From assembly GCA_028874335.1 (NCBI GenBank), contig JAPPJY010000078.1, positions 114,310 to 178,309 of the forward strand: DNA of 64,000 nucleotides, written 5' to 3'. Positions within the stretch are counted from its first letter, which is position 1. The number at the start of each line of letters is the position of its first letter. The notes beneath the pieces were generated by a model, which saw only the letters and a program-made list of their open reading frames with translations, had not been told where the DNA came from and ran no database searches. This document shows positions 45,710 through 63,830 of the stretch, piece by piece. This DNA is from Gemmatimonadota bacterium. Its GTDB lineage: Bacteria > Latescibacterota > UBA2968 > GCA-2709665. A program made the translations under genes and the position numbers.

Positions 45710-48169
45710 TTAAATCCAGTGGCGCCGCCGCTGGAACGGGTAGGGCGGGAGAGCGATGCGGCGCCGTTCTTCGCCTGCGAAAAGGCCCTCGAACCGTACT
45801 GCGAGCCCCGACTCGTATGCGTCTGCAACCGCCTTGACGATTCCGCCGTCATCCGCCTCCGAATTTTCACCTCCCGGAATTCGCAGGCTGTCGATCACAA
45901 CCGGCGCCCCGCCACCGTTCGCGGCCACCGGCCACGCCCGACGCACGTCGGAATACTGTACGGCGTCCATACCGATCGCAATGATGACGCTTATCCCCAA
46001 TTCGGCCAGTGTGTCGAAGGATTTGCGGAACGACGCCGTTTCGTCCTGCTGACGTCGCCAGTACTCCGCGTCGAGAGCCTCGTCCGACGCGATTACCCGA
46101 CCCGTAATGCCGCTGACGAAGTCGAGCGAAGGCGACGCGCAAGCGACGTCGCCCACAAGTTCATCCGCGCCCTGCGCCGACGCAAGTCGCAATCCTTCCT
46201 CGAGACTGAGAACTCCCGCCGCCTGCGCCGCCGCGAGTTCTCCGGGGCCTCGACCGGTGACCGCGTTCGGTCTGATACCCGCACTGGACCACAGTGCGGT
46301 GAGCGCGCATTGCAACGCGTAGACGGCCGTTCGCGCCAACGCGGGATCTTCAAGGAGACCGTCCGTTCCGGCGCGCTCGAACATCGCGGACAGCAGCGAA
46401 TCGCCACGAATTTCGCCAAAGGCCTCCTCGCAGCGATCCAGGACCGCACGCGCCACCGGCTCTGTTTCGTACAGCGTCCGGGCCATTCCCGTCCGTTTGA
46501 TGCCTGACTCTCCGAATGCGAAAGCAACCTTCCCCGCATCCACAGGTTCCGGCGATACGGGAGCATCGGCCACCGCCTTCAATCCGTCCCGTAACGACCC
46601 GGCATCGCTGAAGACCACGCCGGCTCTGTAGTCGAAATGGCTCCGCCCCGTTCCCGCGGTCCATGCCATGTCCGCTAGCAAGTCCTGCACCGCCTCATCG
46701 GAAGCAGACGTCCCTGCCATGGCGTCGAGCCAGTCGAGATAACGCCCCGCCAGATCGATCAGCGCGCCATCCGCCTTTCCGGAGAGCGGGAGGAAACGCG
46801 TCTTTCGCGTCTGCAGCACGTCGTTCTCCGGCAGCGGCAGGCCGGCCATCGGCTCCGGCAGCGATACGTCCACGGAACACGGGGCGCCGGCGAGGACGGG
46901 GTCTGCATCCGTGCGTGAATCGCCCCCGGACAGGTACCCTTCCACCACGACGTGGGCGTTCGTGCCCGATATGCCGAATGCGCTCACCCCCGCGCGCGGC
47001 GGTCGATCGGCGAGGGCCGGCCAATCGGTGTTGGCCGACACCACGCGCACCGGGAGACTGCCCCAGTCCAGGTTCGGATTCGGTTCGTGGAAGTGCAGGT
47101 TACGCGGGATCACGCCACGATGCATCGCCAGCACGGTCTTGATGAGGCTTGCGACCCCCGCGGCCGGTTCCAGATGCCCGATGTTCGTCTTCACGGAGCC
47201 AATCAACAGCGGTCGGTCGGCTTCACGTTCCCTGCCGTAGACCGCCGCTGCCGCCTGCACCTCGATCGGATCGCCGAATCCCGATCCGGACCCGTGCGCC
47301 TCGAGATAGTCGACTTCCGACGGGTCGACATTCCCGCGCGCGAGGGCAGACTCGATGACCCGCTCCTGTGCGGGGCCGTTCGGCACCGTCGGTCCGGCGG
47401 CGGCACCGTTCTGGTTAACCGCCGAACCACGAATCACGCCCCAGATGCGGTCCCCGTCGGCCTCCGCTTCGCTCAAGCGTTTCAGAACGACCATACCACA
47501 ACCCTCCGCTCGCACGAAACCGTCGGCGGATGCATCGAAGGCCCTGCACCGCCCGCTTGGCGACAGCATCCCCAGATCGCCCATTTCTCTTGTAAGCGCA
47601 GGCGAAAGAATGGCGTGCGAGCCCCCAACCAGGGCCATATCCACTTCCTCGTTCCACAGGGCGGCGGCGGCATAGTGTACCGCAACAAGTGACGACGCGC
47701 AGTTGAGTTCCACCGGGATGGTGGGTCCCTCCAGTCCCAGCGCGAAAGAAAGACGCCCGACAGCCATGCTGGCGGCTGTGCCCAGGTAACTGACGCCGTA
47801 GGCGCTGCCTGTCATCAGGTCCCGGTATTCGCTGGTGGATATGCCCGCATAGACTCCGGTGCGGCTGCCCCGGAGCAAGTCCGGATTCATCCCCGCGTCT
47901 TCAAGCGCCTGCCAGCTTGTCTCCATAAGCATGCGTTGCCGCGGATCCATCGTGCGCGCTTCAATGGGCGCAATCCGAAAGAACCTGGAATCAAACCGGT
48001 CAATCTCATCCACGAATCCGCCCTGGCGGTACGCGGCGTACTCAGCCGGAAGCTCTTTGGTGAGCCCCCCCATGTGCCTGAATCTCCGCGTCCGTCCGTC
48101 ACCGCGTCCCTGCCCGCGACGAGTTGACGCCAGAACGCATCGATATCCGGTGCGCCGGGGAACCGGCAC
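45710..48169 (-). CDS. Type I PKS, C-terminal part (KS2 + degenerate AT), out of frame with the upstream part
   Basis: KS2 with 'NCASSLVAVH', 'YLEAHGSGSGFGDPIE', 'VKTNIGHLEPAAGVAS'; AT-like region with 'GRGPGELAAAQAAG' in place of GHSxGE; ends ...PPYPFQRRRHWI*. Genuine coding in this frame begins near the G7 tract at 48065-48071. Confidence 0.9.
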   Translation of the reverse strand: MPVPRRTGYRCVLASTRRGQGRGDGRTRRFRHMGGLTKELPAEYAAYRQGGFVDEIDRFDSRFFRIAPIEARTMDPRQRMLMETSWQALEDAGMNPDLLRGSRTGVYAGISTSEYRDLMTGSAYGVSYLGTAASMAVGRLSFALGLEGPTIPVELNCASSLVAVHYAAAALWNEEVDMALVGGSHAILSPALTREMGDLGMLSPSGRCRAFDASADGFVRAEGCGMVVLKRLSEAEADGDRIWGVIRGSAVNQNGAAAGPTVPNGPAQERVIESALARGNVDPSEVDYLEAHGSGSGFGDPIEVQAAAAVYGREREADRPLLIGSVKTNIGHLEPAAGVASLIKTVLAMHRGVIPRNLHFHEPNPNLDWGSLPVRVVSANTDWPALADRPPRAGVSAFGISGTNAHVVVEGYLSGGDSRTDADPVLAGAPCSVDVSLPEPMAGLPLPENDVLQTRKTRFLPLSGKADGALIDLAGRYLDWLDAMAGTSASDEAVQDLLADMAWTAGTGRSHFDYRAGVVFSDAGSLRDGLKAVADAPVSPEPVDAGKVAFAFGESGIKRTGMARTLYETEPVARAVLDRCEEAFGEIRGDSLLSAMFERAGTDGLLEDPALARTAVYALQCALTALWSSAGIRPNAVTGRGPGELAAAQAAGVLSLEEGLRLASAQGADELVGDVACASPSLDFVSGITGRVIASDEALDAEYWRRQQDETASFRKSFDTLAELGISVIIAIGMDAVQYSDVRRAWPVAANGGGAPVVIDSLRIPGGENSEADDGGIVKAVADAYESGLAVRFEGLFAGEERRRIALPPYPFQRRRHWI

Positions 48170-51100
48170 GCCATACCCACGATCGCAATGCCGTCGTTCT
48201 CTCTCGCGCGCTGCACAACGGTCATGACCTCTGGCTCGGGCTCTTCCTCGACGGCCGGTTCAGTGCTGACCCCGCCAAGTTCTTCAGCAAGGTGACTCGC
48301 CAGGCTGGCAATATCCGGGTAGTCGAATACCACGGTATTGGGCACGACGTACTGGTCGGCAAATGCCCGATTCAGGCGGTTTCGCAGCTCGACGGCCATA
48401 AGCGAGTCCATACCCAGATCGAAGAATCCCACCGAGGGCTCCGGCGCCGCCGGAAGCCTGAGTACTGCCTGCACCTCCTGCTGCAGGAACGACACGAGCA
48501 GTTCTTCCGGCGCCGCGGGCGTTCCCTGCAGACTGGACATCAGGTTCTCAGAAGACGCAGCCGTGCCGGCCTCGTCATCCTTTGTCGCGGAGAGCAAATC
48601 ATCGAGAAAAGGCGGCCGGTCCTGGACAGCTTCTTCGAACACGGACCAGTCCATCGACATCACCACGGAATTCGTAACGTCCTGGCGTACGAGCTGGTCG
48701 AATGCCCGCATACCCTGCTGCGGGGTGAACCAGCGCCCGCCCAGCGCCGAACGCTGCCGGTCGATGCGTTCCCGTTGTTCCGCAGCCTCGCCGATTTCCG
48801 ACCACGCCCCCCAGGCGATGGCCTGTCCGGGGAGTCCCAGCGCACGGCGGTGACCGGCGAGCTGATCCAGAAACGCGTTTGCCGAAGCATGGTTCGCCTG
48901 CCCCGGATTGCCCATGACGCCGACCCGGCTGGAGAACAACACGAACATATCCAGATCGCGGTCCATCGTTGCCCGGTGCAGGTGCCAGGCGCCCAGGACC
49001 TTCGGCCAGAGCACCGTTTCGAATCGGTCCCAGGTCTGATTGGTCAGTGCGCCGTCGGAGAGTACGCCCACGCTGTGGATCACGCCCCCGAGCGGAGGGA
49101 GCGTCGCATCCATCCTCGCCAGCATCTGATCGATCGCGGCGGCGTCCGTAACGTCCGCGAGTTCCACCTGTACTGTAGCACCGGCCTCCCGCAGCCTGCC
49201 AATCGCTTCCTCGGCCTCGTCATCGGGCGCCCGGCGTCCGTTCAATACGATGGCCCCCGCTCCACGGTCCGCCAGCCAGGCGGCGACAGCGCATCCGATT
49301 CCGCCGAGTCCGCCCGTAACGAGATAGGTCCGGTCCTGCCGCAACCTGCCGTTCTGCACAGGCGGCGTCGTTACGACGATCTTGCCGAGGTGGCGTGCGG
49401 CGCGCATGAAGCTCAGGGCTGCGCCGGCTTCGGCGAGGGGCCATCGGCTGTGGGTGATCGCTTCGAGTTCTCCGGACGAGAGACGAGCCATCACGTCCCG
49501 AAGTACCCTTCCCACCCATTCGGGGTCGGTCTTCTTCATCACGTCCAGTTCAAGGATGTCGTAAGGCACGTCCGGACGCACCGCCGCCATCTCCTCCTCG
49601 CTGAGGATGTCCCGCCTGGCCAGTTCCACGAAGCGCCCGCCGTGCCTGAGGCAGGACAGACTCGCTTCGATGAAGCCCTCTCCCGTAAGGCTGTTCAGCA
49701 CCACGTCCACACCCGCGCCGTCCGTGGCCTCCAGGATTTCACGGCCGAAGTTCGTCGTGCGGCTGTCGAAAATGTGATTCACGCCCAGCGATCGGAGATA
49801 CGCCCGTTTGGGCGCGCTCGCGGTGGCGAAGACCTCAGCTCCCGCGGCCTGCACCAGCTGGATGGCAGCCAGCCCGACGCCGCCCGCCCCAGCGTGAATC
49901 AGAACCCGCTCGCCGGCCTCCAGCCCGGAGAACTCGAATGACAATGCCGCGGACACGAACGCGCTTGGCACCGTGGCAAGTCCGGAGACGGAGTATCCCG
50001 ACGGCGCGGGCGCCACCAGTTGCTCGTGCGTAACCATTTGCTGCGCGAACGCGCCGAAACCCAATCCGACCACATGGTCGCCCACCGAGACGGTTGATAC
50101 TTCGGCGCCGACCTCGAGAATACGGCCGCACATTTCCCTGCCGAGATTGCCCTCTTCGATAAAGCCGAGCGACCGGAAGACATCCCAGAAGTTGAGCCCG
50201 GACGCTTCCACCCCAACGCGAACCTCCCACGGCTCGAGTGACCGTGCGGGCAGGGGGAGGACCTGCGGCCGGTCGAACACGCCGGTCGGGTCCGGAGCCA
50301 GCACCCAATCCGACGCCTCCGGGAGCGACAGCCGCTCACCCTCGGTGCCTGCCCGGACCAGGCGCGCCACCTGGCGGCGGTCGGACCGATACGCGATGTG
50401 GTTTTCGGAATCCGGATAGAGAAGTTCGTTGGCGAGGTCGGGTGCGGGCGCCATCTCGCCCGGGTCCAGATCGATCATCCTCGGCTGAAGATGCGCCGCT
50501 TCCCGGGCTATGGCCTTGCCGAAGCCCCACAGCGCCGCGCCAGCGAGTTCTCCGCCGCGCTCGCGTTCCAGTATCTGGGCGCCCCGGGTGATCAACCAGA
50601 CTCCGTTTTCAGGGACGACGTCGGCGTCGGCGATGCCCTGCACGAGCGCGAGCGCGCTCGCTCCCGTCCTTCTTACGTCTTCCGCCATTTCCTGTGTCGT
50701 GGCTTCCGGCCCGTGACCGTCCAGTCCCGCGAGGTGCACAACGCCGCGCAGCGGCACTTCATGCGGCAGACCTGCCAGAAGCGCGCACCAGGACTCACGC
50801 AGGTCGGTTTCTACAGAAGCGTTGAATACGCCCGGACCGTCGCCCACAGGTTCTCTGTCGTCCTGCGTTCCGCTGCCGGCAAGCACGACTGTCTGGTCCC
50901 GCGCGGCCAATTCGGCTGCCAGTTTCGCCGCCGAACCTCCCCGGTCCGCGGCCAGAACCCAGACGCCGGGCGCCTCGGCCACTTTCGACGGACCCTGCGC
51001 AACGATGACACCCTTGTCCAGCGTCCGTGACGTGTCGGATTCATCCACCCCCAGGACCTCCACGCCTTCGAATCCCGCGCCGCCCAGAGCGTAACGCCAG

Positions 51101-54100
51101 ACAGGTGGACCGGCGAGGGCGTGGTGTGGACGATAGTCGTCGGCGAACCGCCACCAGCCGTCCAACTGGCCGAAGGTCAGATCCATCCATCCCAGCCCAC
51201 TCAGGTTTTCGAGTGCGATCAGATGCCCTGACGGCGCGAGAAGGTCCCGGCAGTGGCCCAGCGTCTCGGTCAGGTACCGCGTTGCGTGCAGCACGTTGGA
51301 TGCGATCAGCAGGTCGTATCCGTGGGCGTCGAAGCCCTGTTCGACCGGGTCCTTTTCGATATCCAGCGGACGGTACTCGATGCAACCGCCGCCGTCGCCG
51401 AACCGCGCTTCCGCCTCGGAAAAGAAACCCGCGGAGATATCCGTATACATGTAGTCGAACTGTCCATCCGGAAGTTCCGGAAGGACGGAAGCGGTCGCCG
51501 ATCCGGTACCTGCGCCGACCTCGATGACCCTCAGGCGCCGGCCTTCGGGCAGCGCGGCCACGAGCGCTTCGACCGCATCCGCCAGCATCCGGTTCGCCGC
51601 GCGCGCGACCGGCGCCTTCAGATACAGATCGGCCGCTGTCGGTTCACCGCTGCTGAACAGGAGCGTCAGCGGGTCTTCACGACCGCGAAGCACCTCCGCC
51701 AGGGCGATGCCGGAACGCCTGAACAGGCCGATCTCGATCTGGCCGTCGGGGTGCCGGTCGGCCATGCGCGAGGCATACGCCTCGAGGTCTGCGGGCAGGC
51801 CTTCGGGAAGCGGATCACCCGGCCCAATGACGACGGTGAATCCGTCGCCCGCTTCCTTCACGACCCCCGACCTGGCGAGCATCTCAAACAGCCTCCGAAA
51901 GAGGCGCCTGTGCTCCGGAAGGACGTCCAATTCTTCCCGCAAAACCTCCGGGTCGACGGTTTCTCCGACCTGCCGTTGCCAGCCCAGTTCCTCCAGGGTC
52001 GCGAGCGCGCGGGACCGGGACCACCTTTCCAGGTCCGAGAGCAGGGCGTCCCGGTCATCGGGATCGACTCCCGCGTCCCGCAGATAGCCGGCGAACGACT
52101 GTGAGCCGGACGCGACTTCCGCCGGACCCGGGAAGAAGCCCGCGGATGTAATTCCGGCCGGTAGGTCACGTTCGCGCCAGACGACCTCGTACAGGAGATC
52201 TTTAACGCCCTCGACCGCGGCGAGCAGCGCTTCCGGCGTCGCGCGTTTAACGGCATAGCCGCTCAGGCGGCCCAGAGGGGCTCCGTTCGGGTCGTAGATG
52301 TTGATTTCACCGCTGAGCACTTCCGGCGGCTCGCCCGGCGCGGCTTCCGCCTCGCTGGATGCTTCGCTGAGCCGCACGTGACAGAGGACCCGGTCCGGCA
52401 GCGGTCCCGCCAGCCAGAGTCGCTCCCAGGCAAACGGCAGATACGTGGCGCCGCCTTCCCTGCCTGCCAGATTGCGCGCCGCACCCACGACCTGGAAACA
52501 GCCGTCCAGCACGAGCGGATGGACATCCAGACCATGCCCTGAAAGCGCCTCGGGAAGAGACACCTCGCCCAGCGCCTCACCGGGACGGGACCAGGCTCTG
52601 CCAAGCGTCCGGAAGAACGGGCCCAGGTCGACGCCGGTACTCGCCCTGTGGCGGTAGTATTCCGCCACGTCCAGTGGCGAGAGCTCGGTCTTCAGGCTAT
52701 CGGGGTCGATCCGCCCGCCCGGCTCTGGGCCCGCAGCTCCGAGTGCAAGCACGCCTTCCACGTGGACGGTCCAGTTTCCCTCCTCTCCTCTGCTGAAGAT
52801 CCGGACACCGCGCGGCGAACCCGGTTCGCCGGTTTCGAGCATGACCTGCATCTTCCGGCCGGCGTCACCCGTCCCGTCTTCGTCCTCTTCGAAGACCAGG
52901 GCATTGTGCAACTGGAAATTTTCCACAACCACGGGGCCGCCTTCCTCGAGGCGGGACGCGGCGCAGGCCATCGCGCCATACAGCGCGCCGGGCGCGACGA
53001 TTCGGCCGAATACCTTGTGGTCGTTCAGCCAGGCCGGGTCCGATGGAAACACTTCCGTCTCGAACGTGACCTCTCCGCGAGCGGATTCGTGGCGGTCGCC
53101 GAGCAGCGGGTGACCGGCGCCGCCGGCCCGTCGACGCGGAGGCTGGATCCAATGTCTCCGGCGCTGAAACGGATAGCTGGGCACTGAAATCCGCCGGCGT
53201 GTCTCCCCCGCGAAGAGCCCGGCGAAGCCAACCGGGAGTCCCGCCTCGTATGCCGCTGCCGCTGCCGCTACGAAACCATCGGCATTCCGGGACTCCTCAG
53301 CCCCGTCCGAAGGCGGGCGGAGGCTGGACAGCACCACCGGCGCCGGTGTTTCCGGCGATTCCGGCCAGGACGCGGCCGCCAGCGGAGCGAGTACAGTGCG
53401 CGGACCGATCTCCAGCACCACGTCGACGCCCTGATCCGCCAGCGTCTTCACACCCTGGGCAAACGCCACCGCCTCCCGGGCGTGCCTGCGCCAATAAGCG
53501 CCGCCCTGAGTCTGCCCCGGTTCAACAGCCAGACCCGTCAGGTTGCTGACAACGGCGAGTGAGGGAGACTTGAACTCCAGGTTGCTGAGAAAGCGCTCCA
53601 GTTCGTCAAGAATGGGCTCGACGAGCGCGCTGTGGAACGCCTTGGTCGTGTTCAACCGCCTGACCCTCACGCCTGCCGCGGCGAATTGATTCGAGATCGC
53701 CTCGATGCCCGCCGTTGGACCACTGACAACCTGGTGGGTACCGTTGTAGCCCGAGATGCTCAAACCCACATCCTGAGAGGTCGCGTTCACGACTTCCTCG
53801 ACGCGATCGGCGGGCGCAAATACAGCGGCCATGCTTCCCGGTTCCATCTTCGACATCAACGCGCCGCGTACCGCGGCGAACCGCATTCCGTCCTCCAGGC
53901 TGAATACCCCCGCCGCCTGCGACGCCGCGAGTTCCCCGATGCTGTGTCCCAGAACGACGTCGGGACGGATACCGACGCTCGACCAGAGCGCCGTCAGCGC
54001 GCATTCCAGCGCGTAGAGAGCCGGTTGCTCCCAGGCCGTGTCGCCGAGTTCACCCTCGCTTCCGACGTTTCCGAACATCACGTCCAGCAGCGAGGCTCCC

Positions 54101-55974
54101 CGTTCTTCAAGTATCACCGCCTCGCAGCGGTCCATCACGGCCCTCGCGACGGGCTCGGTCTCGTACAGTCCCCGTCCCATGCCTGCCCACTGGCTCCCCT
54201 GTCCCGTGTAGGCGAACGCCACCCGGGCGCGAGTCCGCGAGAAGGCGCCCAGGTTTCCCTCCTGGACGTCCCTGAGCTGATTCTGCAACGTTTCCACGTC
54301 CTTGAAGACGACGCCCGCGCGGTGGTCGAAGTGGCTACGGCCCACGCCCGCGGTCCAGGCCATGTCCGCCAGTATCTCACTTTCGCCGGAGGAGATTTCG
54401 TCAGCGGCTTCCCCCAGCCGCGAAAGGTAACGCCCGGCAAGATCGCACAGCGCTCCATCGGATTTTCCCGATAGCGGAAGCAGGCGGACCCGGCGCGGTT
54501 GGATTTTCCGTTCAGCGACGGGTAAATCCCCCACCGCTGCCGGCAGTGAGACCGCTACGGGCATCGCGGCACCGGCAGTCCCTGGTATTCCGGCGGCGGC
54601 GTCCGGCGCGCGGTATTCCTCCATTACGATATGGGCGTTGGTCCCGGAAATGCCGAAGGAGTTAACCCCGGCGAGGCGGGTACTCCCCGGACGGCGCGGC
54701 CAGTCCGTCATAGACGACGTCACCCGCAGGGGCAGCCGGTCCCAGTCTACGCTCGGATTGGGGTCCCGGAAATGGAGGTGCTTAGGGATCACGCCCCGGT
54801 TCAGTACGAGCGCGGTCTTGATCACACCGGCTACGCCGGCGGCAGACTCCAGGTGGCCGATATTGGTCTTCACGGATCCGATGAGGAGCGGCCGGTCGGT
54901 CTTTCGTCCACGCCCGTAGACACTCGCCACGGCATCGATCTCGATAGGATCGCCGACGGTGGTTCCCGTCCCGTGCGCCTCGAGGTAATCCACGTCCAGC
55001 GGGGAGACGCCGCCCTCGGACAATGCGGTTTCGATCACCTCTTCGAGCGCTGGCGTGTTCGGCACCGTCAGCCCCGTACTGGCCCCGCCGTGGTTCACCG
55101 CCGAGCCCCGGATGACCGCCCAGATCCGGTCCCCGTCCGCCTCAGCCTCGCTCAGCCGCTTCAGCACGACGACCCCGCAGCCCTCGCCACGCACGTAACC
55201 GTTTGCCGAGGCGTCAAAGGTCTTGCATTGCCCGTCCGGAGACAGCATCATCGCCTCCGCGCGCAATTCGTAGATGCGACCGTTCAGTATTGCCTGCACG
55301 CCGCCGGCGATGGCCAGATCGGCTTTGCCCTGTTGCAGGTCCGCCACCGCGTCATTGACCGATACCATGGACGACGCGCACGCGGCGTCGACCGCCTTGG
55401 CCGGACCCCTGAGCCCCAGTACGAACGAGACCCGGCCGCTGGCGCCGTTCAGGTTCGTGCCGCTGAGGGCATAGAGACAGCCGGCAGCCTCGGCGGGCTT
55501 GATCGAATCCACCACCAGCATTCGGTATTCGTCGTTGCTGATCCCCGTGTAAACGCCCGTGCGGGTCTCTCTCAACCCCTCCGGATCGATTCCGGCGTCC
55601 TCAAGCGCCTCCCAGCTCGTCTCCAGCATCATTCGCTGCTGCGGGTCCAAAAACTCAGCTTCCACAGGCGAAATCCGGAAAAAAGCGTCGTCGAAGAGGT
55701 CGATGTCGTCGACGAACGCGCCGAAACGGCAACCCTCACTCTGCCCTGCGTTTTCGGCGAAGATCTGCCCCCAGCGGCCTGCCCCGGAGCCCGGGACACC
55801 CTCACCTACGGCATTCCCGCCGGCTTCGAGCAATCGCCAGAACGAAGCGATGTCCGCCGCGCCGGGGAATCGACACGCCATGCCCACGATTGCTATCGGC
55901 TGCGCGGACCCGGAACTCGTGCTCCGGTCGTCCGGGTTCCCCAGGGATTCAATGTGCCCATCTGCTTCCATCAT
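47887..55974 (-). CDS. Highly reducing type I polyketide synthase, KS-AT-DH-MT-ER-KR-ACP then start of KS2
   Basis: KS 'VDAACASSMVSVN'; AT 'GHSIGELAASQAAG' with 'KAFHSALV'; DH 'LNDHKVFGRIVAPGALY'; MT 'VIEVGAGTGSATASVLPEL'; ER 'HAGAGGVGLAAIQLVQ'; KR 'YLVTGGLGGIGCAVAAWL'; ACP 'FFDLGMDSLMAVELRNRL'. Then 'IAIVGMACRFPGAPDIDAFWRQLV' (KS2 start) before the frame is lost at ~48070. Confidence 0.95.
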   Translation of the reverse strand: MMEADGHIESLGNPDDRSTSSGSAQPIAIVGMACRFPGAADIASFWRLLEAGGNAVGEGVPGSGAGRWGQIFAENAGQSEGCRFGAFVDDIDLFDDAFFRISPVEAEFLDPQQRMMLETSWEALEDAGIDPEGLRETRTGVYTGISNDEYRMLVVDSIKPAEAAGCLYALSGTNLNGASGRVSFVLGLRGPAKAVDAACASSMVSVNDAVADLQQGKADLAIAGGVQAILNGRIYELRAEAMMLSPDGQCKTFDASANGYVRGEGCGVVVLKRLSEAEADGDRIWAVIRGSAVNHGGASTGLTVPNTPALEEVIETALSEGGVSPLDVDYLEAHGTGTTVGDPIEIDAVASVYGRGRKTDRPLLIGSVKTNIGHLESAAGVAGVIKTALVLNRGVIPKHLHFRDPNPSVDWDRLPLRVTSSMTDWPRRPGSTRLAGVNSFGISGTNAHIVMEEYRAPDAAAGIPGTAGAAMPVAVSLPAAVGDLPVAERKIQPRRVRLLPLSGKSDGALCDLAGRYLSRLGEAADEISSGESEILADMAWTAGVGRSHFDHRAGVVFKDVETLQNQLRDVQEGNLGAFSRTRARVAFAYTGQGSQWAGMGRGLYETEPVARAVMDRCEAVILEERGASLLDVMFGNVGSEGELGDTAWEQPALYALECALTALWSSVGIRPDVVLGHSIGELAASQAAGVFSLEDGMRFAAVRGALMSKMEPGSMAAVFAPADRVEEVVNATSQDVGLSISGYNGTHQVVSGPTAGIEAISNQFAAAGVRVRRLNTTKAFHSALVEPILDELERFLSNLEFKSPSLAVVSNLTGLAVEPGQTQGGAYWRRHAREAVAFAQGVKTLADQGVDVVLEIGPRTVLAPLAAASWPESPETPAPVVLSSLRPPSDGAEESRNADGFVAAAAAAYEAGLPVGFAGLFAGETRRRISVPSYPFQRRRHWIQPPRRRAGGAGHPLLGDRHESARGEVTFETEVFPSDPAWLNDHKVFGRIVAPGALYGAMACAASRLEEGGPVVVENFQLHNALVFEEDEDGTGDAGRKMQVMLETGEPGSPRGVRIFSRGEEGNWTVHVEGVLALGAAGPEPGGRIDPDSLKTELSPLDVAEYYRHRASTGVDLGPFFRTLGRAWSRPGEALGEVSLPEALSGHGLDVHPLVLDGCFQVVGAARNLAGREGGATYLPFAWERLWLAGPLPDRVLCHVRLSEASSEAEAAPGEPPEVLSGEINIYDPNGAPLGRLSGYAVKRATPEALLAAVEGVKDLLYEVVWRERDLPAGITSAGFFPGPAEVASGSQSFAGYLRDAGVDPDDRDALLSDLERWSRSRALATLEELGWQRQVGETVDPEVLREELDVLPEHRRLFRRLFEMLARSGVVKEAGDGFTVVIGPGDPLPEGLPADLEAYASRMADRHPDGQIEIGLFRRSGIALAEVLRGREDPLTLLFSSGEPTAADLYLKAPVARAANRMLADAVEALVAALPEGRRLRVIEVGAGTGSATASVLPELPDGQFDYMYTDISAGFFSEAEARFGDGGGCIEYRPLDIEKDPVEQGFDAHGYDLLIASNVLHATRYLTETLGHCRDLLAPSGHLIALENLSGLGWMDLTFGQLDGWWRFADDYRPHHALAGPPVWRYALGGAGFEGVEVLGVDESDTSRTLDKGVIVAQGPSKVAEAPGVWVLAADRGGSAAKLAAELAARDQTVVLAGSGTQDDREPVGDGPGVFNASVETDLRESWCALLAGLPHEVPLRGVVHLAGLDGHGPEATTQEMAEDVRRTGASALALVQGIADADVVPENGVWLITRGAQILERERGGELAGAALWGFGKAIAREAAHLQPRMIDLDPGEMAPAPDLANELLYPDSENHIAYRSDRRQVARLVRAGTEGERLSLPEASDWVLAPDPTGVFDRPQVLPLPARSLEPWEVRVGVEASGLNFWDVFRSLGFIEEGNLGREMCGRILEVGAEVSTVSVGDHVVGLGFGAFAQQMVTHEQLVAPAPSGYSVSGLATVPSAFVSAALSFEFSGLEAGERVLIHAGAGGVGLAAIQLVQAAGAEVFATASAPKRAYLRSLGVNHIFDSRTTNFGREILEATDGAGVDVVLNSLTGEGFIEASLSCLRHGGRFVELARRDILSEEEMAAVRPDVPYDILELDVMKKTDPEWVGRVLRDVMARLSSGELEAITHSRWPLAEAGAALSFMRAARHLGKIVVTTPPVQNGRLRQDRTYLVTGGLGGIGCAVAAWLADRGAGAIVLNGRRAPDDEAEEAIGRLREAGATVQVELADVTDAAAIDQMLARMDATLPPLGGVIHSVGVLSDGALTNQTWDRFETVLWPKVLGAWHLHRATMDRDLDMFVLFSSRVGVMGNPGQANHASANAFLDQLAGHRRALGLPGQAIAWGAWSEIGEAAEQRERIDRQRSALGGRWFTPQQGMRAFDQLVRQDVTNSVVMSMDWSVFEEAVQDRPPFLDDLLSATKDDEAGTAASSENLMSSLQGTPAAPEELLVSFLQQEVQAVLRLPAAPEPSVGFFDLGMDSLMAVELRNRLNRAFADQYVVPNTVVFDYPDIASLASHLAEELGGVSTEPAVEEEPEPEVMTVVQRARENDGIAIVGMACRFPGAPDIDAFWRQLVAGRDAVTDGRGDSGTWGGSPKSFRLSTPRTARADSWMRLTGLIPGSFGLRPLKRARWIRGNACLWRQAGRRLKTRG

Positions 55975-61499: not shown

Positions 61500-62576
61500 T
61501 CAAGATCCGGCGTCAATCTGCTCAGATTTCCGCATCCGGTCCCGCGCTTTCCTCGAGATGCGGTTCCAGACGCCCGTGAGCCCCATCGCCTTCTTCATTT
61601 CCTTCAACGTCTCATCTGCAACCACCTGGACGCGCTGCGTTCCCTCGTACAGTACCTTTTCCACGTACCCTGAATCCGCTGCAAATTGCGCCCTTCGCTC
61701 CCGGATCGGATCGAGAAAGTCGTTCAGCGCCCGGCTGAGCTTTTCCTTCACCTCCACGTCGCCGACCGTCCCGTCGCGATACCTCGACTTCAGGTCAGCC
61801 ACTTCCGCCTCGTCCGGATTGAACGCGTCGTGGTAGACGAATACGGGGTTCCCTTCCACCCTGCCGGGAATGTCGGCTCTGATCCGGTTGGGATCGGTAA
61901 ACATCCCCCGCACCTTCTTCTTCACGGTCTGCGCGTCGTCGGACAGAAAAATCGCATTGTCCAGGCTCTTGCTCATCTTGGCTTGGCCATCCGTACCCAC
62001 GAGAACGGGGACTTCGCCGATCAGCGCGTCCGGAATCGGGAAGACCTCCCCGTAGTAGCTGTTGAACCGGCGGACGATTTCCCGGGTGACCTCCACGTGC
62101 GCCAGATTGTCCTTACCCACGGGAACCAGGTGCGCCCTTGGCGTCAAGATATCCGCCGCCTGCAAAATGGGGTATCCGACCAGCCCGAACGGAATCGCCT
62201 CTTCATCCAGCCTTGCGGCGCGCGCCATATCCTTGATGCTGGGCAATCGTGCCACCCTCGGCAGCGTCACCAGCATCTCGAAAAACAGATTCATCTCGTA
62301 AACGGCGTGGATGGCGGACTGCAGATAAATGGTCGACCTGGACGGATCGATGCCCACCGCCAGATAGTCCAGCAGCATCTCCCGCACGTTTTCCCGCAAG
62401 GCATGGATGTGCTCCTTCTGCGGCCGCGTCGTGAGCATATGCAGGTCCGCCACCAGGAAAAAGCACTCGTATTCGTCCTGCAGCCGCACCCGGTTCTTCA
62501 ACGAGCCGACGTAATGTCCGAGGTGCATCTTCCCCGTGGGCCTGTCGCCCGTGAGTATTCTTTTCCGTTTATCCAT
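61500..62576 (-). CDS. trpS: Tryptophanyl-tRNA synthetase
   Basis: 'ILTGDRPTGKMHLGHYVGSLKN', 'KMSKSLDNAIFLSDD', C-terminal 'VEKVLYEGTQRVQVVADETLKEMKKAMGL'. Confidence 0.96.
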   Translation of the reverse strand: MDKRKRILTGDRPTGKMHLGHYVGSLKNRVRLQDEYECFFLVADLHMLTTRPQKEHIHALRENVREMLLDYLAVGIDPSRSTIYLQSAIHAVYEMNLFFEMLVTLPRVARLPSIKDMARAARLDEEAIPFGLVGYPILQAADILTPRAHLVPVGKDNLAHVEVTREIVRRFNSYYGEVFPIPDALIGEVPVLVGTDGQAKMSKSLDNAIFLSDDAQTVKKKVRGMFTDPNRIRADIPGRVEGNPVFVYHDAFNPDEAEVADLKSRYRDGTVGDVEVKEKLSRALNDFLDPIRERRAQFAADSGYVEKVLYEGTQRVQVVADETLKEMKKAMGLTGVWNRISRKARDRMRKSEQIDAGS

Positions 62577-62589
62577 CGCTACTCCCCCT

Positions 62590-62620
62590 AAACAAAAATC
62601 CCCGCCGAGGACCGGCAGGG
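62590..62620 (-). terminator. Attenuator-type intrinsic terminator immediately upstream of trpS
   Basis: Minus strand CCCTGCCG-GTCCT-CGGCGGGG-ATTTTTGTTT; U tract ends ~14 nt before the trpS ATG. Confidence 0.85.
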
Positions 62621-62651
62621 ACGTTGATCTTAAAAAAATCGAATCTCAAAT

Positions 62652-62729
62652 TCAGCACGCAGTCAGCCGGCCGGTACGATTGAAGTCGTACCGCCACCAG
62701 CCTCTTGAATTTCCGCCGCGCGCCGCCAT
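62652..62729 (-). CDS. Putative 25-aa trpS leader peptide with tandem Trp codons
   Basis: ATG GCG GCG CGC GGC GGA AAT TCA AGA GGC TGG TGG CGG TAC GAC TTC AAT CGT ACC GGC CGG CTG ACT GCG TGC TGA = MAARGGNSRGWWRYDFNRTGRLTAC*; preceded by SD-like AAAGGAAG. Confidence 0.8.
   Translation of the reverse strand: MAARGGNSRGWWRYDFNRTGRLTAC
62670..62693 (-). promoter_or_regulatory. Pause/antiterminator hairpin segments of the trpS attenuator
   Basis: CGGTACGA (62693-62686) pairs with TCGTACCG (62679-62672). ACCGGC (62675-62670) can alternatively pair with GCCGGT (62616-62611) in the terminator 5' arm. Confidence 0.7.
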
Positions 62730-62768
62730 CTCGTTCTTCCTTTAAACAGGGTTCTCTGGAACCGGTGA

Positions 62769-62797
62769 ACGATATCGAATTCTCACTCCCCTGTCAA
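62769..62797 (-). promoter_or_regulatory. Sigma70-like promoter of trpS
   Basis: Minus strand TTGACA (62797-62792), 17 bp spacer, TATCGT (62774-62769). Confidence 0.75.
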
Positions 62798-62837: not shown

Positions 62838-63830
62838 CTATGTCGCATCCCTCAACAGTTGCGCTATTTCAACGGCAAAGTAGGTCAGGATCATATCCGC
62901 GCCCGCCCGTTTGATGGACGTCAGCGTTTCGACCATCGCGCGCTCCTTTTCCACCCAGCCGCGCTCCGCGGCCGCAAGTACCATCCCGTATTCTCCGGAC
63001 ACGTTGTAGGCCGCGATGGGCGTTTCGAAGCTCTGCCTCGCGCTCGCGATGACGTCCAGGTACGGCAGTGCGGGTTTCACCATCACCACGTCGGCCCCCT
63101 CCTCGATATCCAGCGCAATTTCTCTCATCGCTTCCCGGATATTGGCGGGATCCATCTGGTACGTCTTCTTGTCCTCGGGGACGCCCCGCGCCTTTACCGG
63201 CGCGGACTTGAGCGCTCCACGGAACGGCCCGTAGAAGCATGATGCATACTTGGCGGAATAGGCCATGATGCCGACGTTGCTGAACCCATGGTCGTCCAGC
63301 GCCACCCGGATGGCGCCAATCCGTCCGTCCATCATGTCAGACGGGGTGACCCAGTCCACGCCCGCCTCGGCGTGAGACAGAGCCATTCTGCACAGCACCT
63401 CAACGCTCTCGTCGTTCGCGACCTCGCCGTCGATCAGCAGGCCGTCGTGTCCGTGCGTGGTATAGGGATCCAGCGCCACGTCCGTCTGTACGCAGAGGTC
63501 TGGAAGCGCCGCCTTGAGCGCACGGACGGCCCTCTGGATCAACCCGTCCGGCGCGTACGCCATCGTGGCGCGCTCGTCCTTTTCCTCCGAGTATCCGAAC
63601 AGATTCACGCCGCAGATGCCGAGGCCGTACACCTTCTCGCATTCTCGAATGAGTTCGTCGACCGAGAACCGGAACTGCCCGGGCATCGAGTCAATGGGTT
63701 CGCGCACGTTGGCGCGTTCAGTCACGAACATGGGATAGATCAGGTCCCCGACGTTCAGTACGGTTTCCCTTGTCAGCGTCCGAATGGGTTCCGAACGCCT
63801 CAATCGCCGGGGCCGGTAGGTCAGTTCCAT
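62838..63830 (-). CDS. hemB: Delta-aminolevulinic acid dehydratase (porphobilinogen synthase)
   Basis: 'RPRRLRRSEPIRTLTRETVLNVGDLIYPMFVTE', 'VNLFGYSEEKDE', 'VMVKPALPYLDVI', 'AYNVSGEYGMVLAAAERGW'; start MELTYRPRRLRR. Confidence 0.96.
   Translation of the reverse strand: MELTYRPRRLRRSEPIRTLTRETVLNVGDLIYPMFVTERANVREPIDSMPGQFRFSVDELIRECEKVYGLGICGVNLFGYSEEKDERATMAYAPDGLIQRAVRALKAALPDLCVQTDVALDPYTTHGHDGLLIDGEVANDESVEVLCRMALSHAEAGVDWVTPSDMMDGRIGAIRVALDDHGFSNVGIMAYSAKYASCFYGPFRGALKSAPVKARGVPEDKKTYQMDPANIREAMREIALDIEEGADVVMVKPALPYLDVIASARQSFETPIAAYNVSGEYGMVLAAAERGWVEKERAMVETLTSIKRAGADMILTYFAVEIAQLLRDAT

Follow-up and report, generated by a model that had tools for sequence, protein, structure and literature searches.

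A probable ribosome-mediated transcription attenuator in front of the tryptophanyl-tRNA synthetase gene of Latescibacterota

What controls the tryptophanyl-tRNA synthetase gene trpS in an uncultured bacterium, and does a short reading frame with adjacent Trp codons in front of this gene take part? The locus lies in a window of 64,000 nucleotides (the whole stretch of DNA analyzed here), taken from a 5.4 Mb assembly of 96 contigs, referred to as genome G000. The element in question is flanked by the hemB stop (62838) and the trpS ATG (62576) and, like both genes, is on the minus strand. A first-pass annotation had read it as a ribosome-mediated attenuator made up of a promoter, a Shine-Dalgarno-like sequence with a leader ORF, a hairpin, a terminator, and a complementarity between the second hairpin arm and the terminator. 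All five elements were found on the minus strand where they had been placed. The features are as follows, in the order of transcription.

62838..63830, minus strand: hemB, porphobilinogen synthase, lying upstream in the same orientation (NCBIfam NF006762, 485.9 bits; cut-off 297)
62769..62797, minus strand: sigma-70-type promoter TTGACA-17-TATCGT (motif scan; kept in relatives)
62736..62743, minus strand: Shine-Dalgarno-like sequence AAAGGAAG of the leader ORF, with the ATG at 62729 six bases on (read directly)
62652..62729, minus strand: leader ORF of 25 codons, MAARGGNSRGWWRYDFNRTGRLTAC, with the stop codon UGA at 62654-62652
62694..62699, minus strand: putative regulatory codons UGG UGG, codons 11-12 of the leader ORF (read directly)
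62665..62702, minus strand: hairpin 1:2 (minimum-energy fold; pair counts across orthologues)
62666..62675, minus strand: segment 2, ACCGGCCGGC, the 5' strand of the predicted antiterminator, pairing with 62616-62610 when a ribosome is placed at the Trp codons
62610..62616, minus strand: segment 3, GCCGGUC, common to the predicted antiterminator and the terminator (folding; shuffle test)
62590..62622, minus strand: intrinsic terminator GUCCCUGCCG-GUCCU-CGGCGGGGAU with T tract (terminator scan; conserved)
61500..62576, minus strand: trpS, tryptophan--tRNA ligase of 358 aa, the putatively controlled gene (NCBIfam TIGR00233, 310.9 bits; cut-off 176.75)

The promoter is the sole sigma-70-like match in the 61-64 kb region, agreeing in 10 of 12 bases (about 0.8 such matches expected by chance), and reading the sequence confirmed the two UGG codons of the leader ORF. 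The hairpin had been described as an 8-bp stem directly 3' of the Trp codons. This upper stem (CGGUACGA/UCGUACCG; 62693-62686 / 62679-62672) is indeed present, but the hairpin is larger, with six more pairs in a lower stem (GGCUGG/CCGGCU; 62702-62697 / 62670-62665). The lower stem thus brings the Trp codons inside the 5' side of hairpin 1 (segment 1), as in E. coli. The terminator stem (62622-62598) has a folding energy of -17.1 kcal/mol, and its T tract runs to 62590, 13 nt 5' of the trpS start codon. The minimum-energy fold of the leader contains both hairpin 1 and the terminator, and the leader folds better than its shuffled versions (z -2.8; 1 of 200 shuffles as good). The antiterminator that had been proposed, ACCGGC with GCCGGU, is the register used in one same-genus genome (G002), whereas the window favors an overlapping, shifted register of 7 bp, GGCCGGC (62672-62666) with GCCGGUC (62616-62610). 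Elsewhere in the window (45710-55974, minus strand), two ORFs resembling polyketide synthase genes, very large at 2695 and 819 aa, overlap. The reading frame changes near 47.9-48.2 kb, which either a sequencing frameshift or a genuine interruption of the gene could explain.

The analysis shows the individual elements, how they are conserved and which alternative folds are computed for them; from these we infer the transcription start, pausing, termination and the response to Trp-tRNA. Transcription would start about 7 nt past the -10 box, after which a ribosome would load on the leader ORF. When Trp-tRNA is scarce, this ribosome would pause at UGG-UGG and cover the 5' arm of hairpin 1, which would free segment 2 to pair with segment 3. 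The 2:3 pairing would block the terminator, and trpS would be transcribed. When Trp-tRNA is charged, the ribosome would reach the UGA codon and its footprint would cover segment 2, so that segments 3 and 4 would pair, the terminator would form and a transcript of about 170 nt would end near 62590. The locus has the features of such an attenuator, with a leader ORF carrying tandem cognate codons and a terminator between this ORF and the structural gene. In folding, the 2:3 pairing excludes the terminator and is favored by a stalled ribosome but disfavored with a ribosome at the stop codon. The switch very probably permits read-through of the gene only under a shortage of Trp-tRNA.

The comparison with orthologous leaders carries much of the argument. 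TrpS searches covered 60 related genomes plus named genome records and gave us, for comparison, the regions upstream of trpS from the same genus (G001-G003), from two further genera of the family (G004 and G005) and from the remaining members of the order. Those of G001, G002, G003 and G005 contain leaders that align with the window leader over its full length, with a leader-region DNA identity of 83-91% among the same-genus genomes and of 53-61% between G005 and the others. Promoter hexamers, ORF, hairpin and terminator are kept in all four; the hexamers (-10 box TATCGT, TATTGT or TATTAT) keep their 17-nt spacing while the spacer sequence diverges. An intact leader ORF of 23-25 codons lies at the same place in each of these genomes, encoding MAARGGNSRGWWRYDFNRTGRLTAC in the window, MAARYENSGSWRWHDFNRTGRLTAC in G003, MLAHGGISGSWRWYDFNRTGQLTAC in G002, MAALCGNSGSWWWHDFNRTGRLNAC in G001 and MVHGWFRSSWWYDRHHTGWLTVH in G005. 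Otherwise, the peptide is little conserved in its N-terminal half, but the three-codon slot directly 5' of the upper stem reads WWR, WRW, WRW, WWW and SWW in the five genomes, which means that at least two of the three aligned codons are UGG in every leader while the combination varies. Keeping the number of Trp codons while their positions shift is the pattern expected from selection on Trp codon content. The distance from segment 2 to the stop codon is 11 nt both in the window and in G005.

The paired regions are kept as well. In the named structure, 95.8% of the alignment cells are paired, against 24-46% in controls with slid partners. In hairpin 1, the compensatory replacement of one C-G pair by U-A (in G005) stands beside several one-sided changes, and the 8-bp stem of G001 and G003 has a C-A mismatch; the terminator shows one double change and two one-sided changes. 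Covariation thus amounts to two doubly changed pairs among five sequences, a value reached by 43 of 500 shuffles; it is thin and too weak to decide by itself because there are only five orthologues, four of which are 83-91% identical. The antiterminator is formed by GGUUGGC with GCCGGCC in G005 and by the shifted ACCGGC with GCCGGU in G002. When the spacer was dinucleotide-shuffled, a 2:3 complementarity as good was obtained in 4 of 1000 cases for the window, 40 of 1000 for G002 and 44 of 1000 for G005.

The behavior of these leaders was modeled by placing each leader codon in the A site and folding the free RNA to the end of segment 3, with a footprint assumed to protect 12 nt downstream. When the Trp codons occupy the A site, the probability that segment 3 pairs upstream is 0.96 in G000, G003 and G001, 0.87 in G002 and 0.98 in G005, and the minimum fold of the stalled state is the 2:3 antiterminator in all five leaders. 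With the ribosome at the stop codon, G002 keeps a pairing of 0.41, whereas in the other four it drops to about 0. Identical treatment of the E. coli trp leader yields 0.71 and 0 for these two ribosome positions. Both the alignment of orthologues (in which the Trp codons, the terminator and the hairpin, with its single compensatory pair, are kept) and the folding of the RNA (predicted switch in every orthologue with the ribosome on the Trp codons), which the first-pass annotation had named as checks, therefore support its reading of the element as a ribosome-mediated attenuator. Without a ribosome, segment 3 still pairs upstream with a probability of 0.47-0.77 in the five leaders, compared to 0.07 in E. 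coli, so hairpin 1 appears to be a weaker guard against the antiterminator than in E. coli. It may thus guard only feebly or serve chiefly for pausing; in this RNA, the main off-switch seems to be the ribosome at the stop codon, which masks segment 2.

One could read the hairpin and T tract as a plain hemB terminator, with trpS having its own promoter and the Trp codons being incidental. It is true that hemB lies upstream on the same strand, both in the window and in the f1 relatives read, and that in G004 the leader ORF is gone while a shortened terminator still stands between hemB and trpS. The terminator, however, is found about 216 nt beyond the hemB stop codon and 3' of the conserved promoter, and hence unavoidably in the path of trpS transcription. 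A plain terminator also needs neither the ORF nor the Trp codons nor the 2:3 complementarity, all of which are conserved, and we regard this reading as very unlikely. The leader might also act without sensing Trp, as a constitutive weak attenuator or as a translational-coupling ORF that sets the trpS dosage. In the model, the antiterminator is favored across ribosome positions at codons 2-16, beyond the UGG codons alone; stalls 5' of the Trp codons likewise favor upstream pairing of segment 3. Moreover, leader ORFs are proposed to raise downstream translation via reinitiation (PMC4833913), a proposal that counts for such a role. Yet the UGG codons are kept directly 5' of the hairpin in five genomes while shifting position, and the gene behind them is that of the Trp synthetase itself, which makes a leader blind to Trp highly improbable, slightly more so than a plain hemB terminator.

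Control by a T-box or another known riboswitch has the least in its favor. A T-box does exist in the window genome (before pheST), and T-boxes precede trpS in three Chloroflexi relatives. The Rfam scan of the window, however, yielded no T-box (RF00230), and there is no T-box core upstream of trpS, as the first-pass annotation had noted; no other Rfam family reached its threshold, and the best sub-threshold matches are at chance level. Nor did the Trp_leader model match in the window, at its gathering score or at E-values up to 10, and the scans of window and relatives assigned the trpS leader to no known family. At the sensitivity of Rfam, a T-box is already refuted here, and we give this reading almost no credence. 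Taken together, it is highly probable that trpS is controlled by a ribosome-mediated transcription attenuator of the E. coli trp type.

A covariance model built from the five leaders finds exactly one match in each of its own source genomes (G000, G001, G002, G003 and G005), with genome-wide E-values of 1e-39 to 2e-23 in the latter four, from which the model was partly built. The leader is thus found in 5 of 65 phylum genomes, with no match in the other 60. In the trpS relatives of Poribacteria, Chloroflexi, Armatimonadota and Spirochaetota, the model detected no further member. Its only additional hit was a weak match (E 0.07) to a remnant in G004. This genome has kept the promoter -35 box and the shortened terminator while losing both the leader ORF and hairpin 1, and it offers a natural loss of the leader usable for comparison. 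The order's other family has different sequences upstream of trpS, with no such leader among them. Judged by these searches, the distribution is narrow, restricted to the family and absent from the rest of the order. This restriction and the predicted weakness of hairpin 1 compared to E. coli are the two points that weaken the interpretation. Directly after trpS, G003 (L083:361-1227), G001 (L147:2035-2907) and G005 (L148:485-1192) encode a shortened TrpRS-like paralogue without a recognizable KMSKS motif and with a HIGH motif that is not kept; this paralogue is absent from the window genome and was not found in G002.

A second attenuator is present in the window genome before trpE (L112:590-760, contig C84; alignment A3). 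Ahead of the gene come MNVTDRDRNGFSWRGYFYRSYRWYYREVSDCCVCPRE and a terminator, CCGUGGGCAUCUGCUCACGG, with nine U after it; UGCCCACG, located just 5' of the leader stop codon, shows full complementarity to CGUGGGCA of the terminator arm. Across the order, the trpE leaders contain W, Y and F codons (e.g., MMNAFATYFWYFWRRFDGRYYYYRRPSKSVVCPAC) and a common terminator core, with UGCCCA or a variant before the stop codon being complementary to UGGGCA of the terminator. A model built from 18 of them gives one match each in 20 of 21 order genomes, the trpE gene of the missing genome lying at a contig end; no Rfam family matches these leaders. In three genera (L117, L118, L119), a second sigma-70-like promoter (TTGACA...) is located between the trpE attenuator terminator and trpE, and it could bypass attenuation. 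In G004 (L146:206-536, contig C166), a second copy of trpE is preceded by a weak T-box match whose specifier region contains UGG.

The T-box of the window genome lies directly upstream of what appears to be pheST (L145:3545-3840, contig C20), with PheS identified by its sequence rather than by a family model. With 80 bits it scores below the Rfam gathering score, but its core is intact, and it is the sole T-box match in the genome. Together with the trpS attenuator, this T-box indicates that attenuators and T-boxes coexist in one genome and that both mechanisms would be used for tRNA synthetases. TRAP and TrpR, considered as other means of control, were not found in the seven genomes tested, the window genome included; this result and the second attenuator at trpE count in favor of attenuation at trpS. 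We consider it an evenly balanced proposal that the order regulates its Trp metabolism by two attenuators (Trp-only for trpS; Trp/Tyr/Phe for trpE) with no Trp repressor protein found, and with pheST under a T-box, the reverse of E. coli. If true, anthranilate synthase would come, through the trpE leader, under the control of aromatic amino-acid starvation in general.

Ribosome-mediated attenuation of aminoacyl-tRNA synthetase genes has precedents. In E. coli, the pheST operon is under such control. This attenuator (mentioned in PMC1262725) resembles the present one in acting on synthetase genes, but uses Phe codons instead of Trp codons, and pheST of the window genome has a T-box instead. Closer in target are the classical attenuators predicted upstream of trpS and trpS2 in Streptomyces (PMC1262725), which belong to another phylum and have another sequence, and the trpS leader trpL2 reported from RNA-seq in S. 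lividans (PMC8079986). TrpL2 (MMTRTCTQLWRAA) contains one Trp and lacks a U-rich tract, whereas in leaders of the window type the terminator is canonical and the Trp codons number at least two. Given the Streptomyces predictions, the type of mechanism is not new and is indeed of the ordinary textbook kind; the present element adds a probable case from Latescibacterota, a little-studied uncultured phylum for which we found no report of a trpS attenuator in the open-access literature. By the comparative evidence, a tRNA synthetase gene of this phylum is very probably under attenuation that couples transcription to translation, through a leader ORF that is a small gene missed by the usual ORF size cut-off. 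The interest of the element therefore rests on the phylum, the comparative support and the neighboring trpE system.

The trp leader of E. coli (trpL; Rfam Trp_leader) likewise combines a short ORF carrying tandem UGG codons, 1:2/2:3/3:4 alternatives and a terminator with a T tract, and shows the same ribosome-position behavior when folded side by side with the window element. The two differ in the gene that they control (trpE in E. coli, putatively trpS here) and in the window element having no Rfam match. In addition, the window ORF spans both arms of hairpin 1, and the state without a ribosome is predicted to terminate less strongly than in E. coli.
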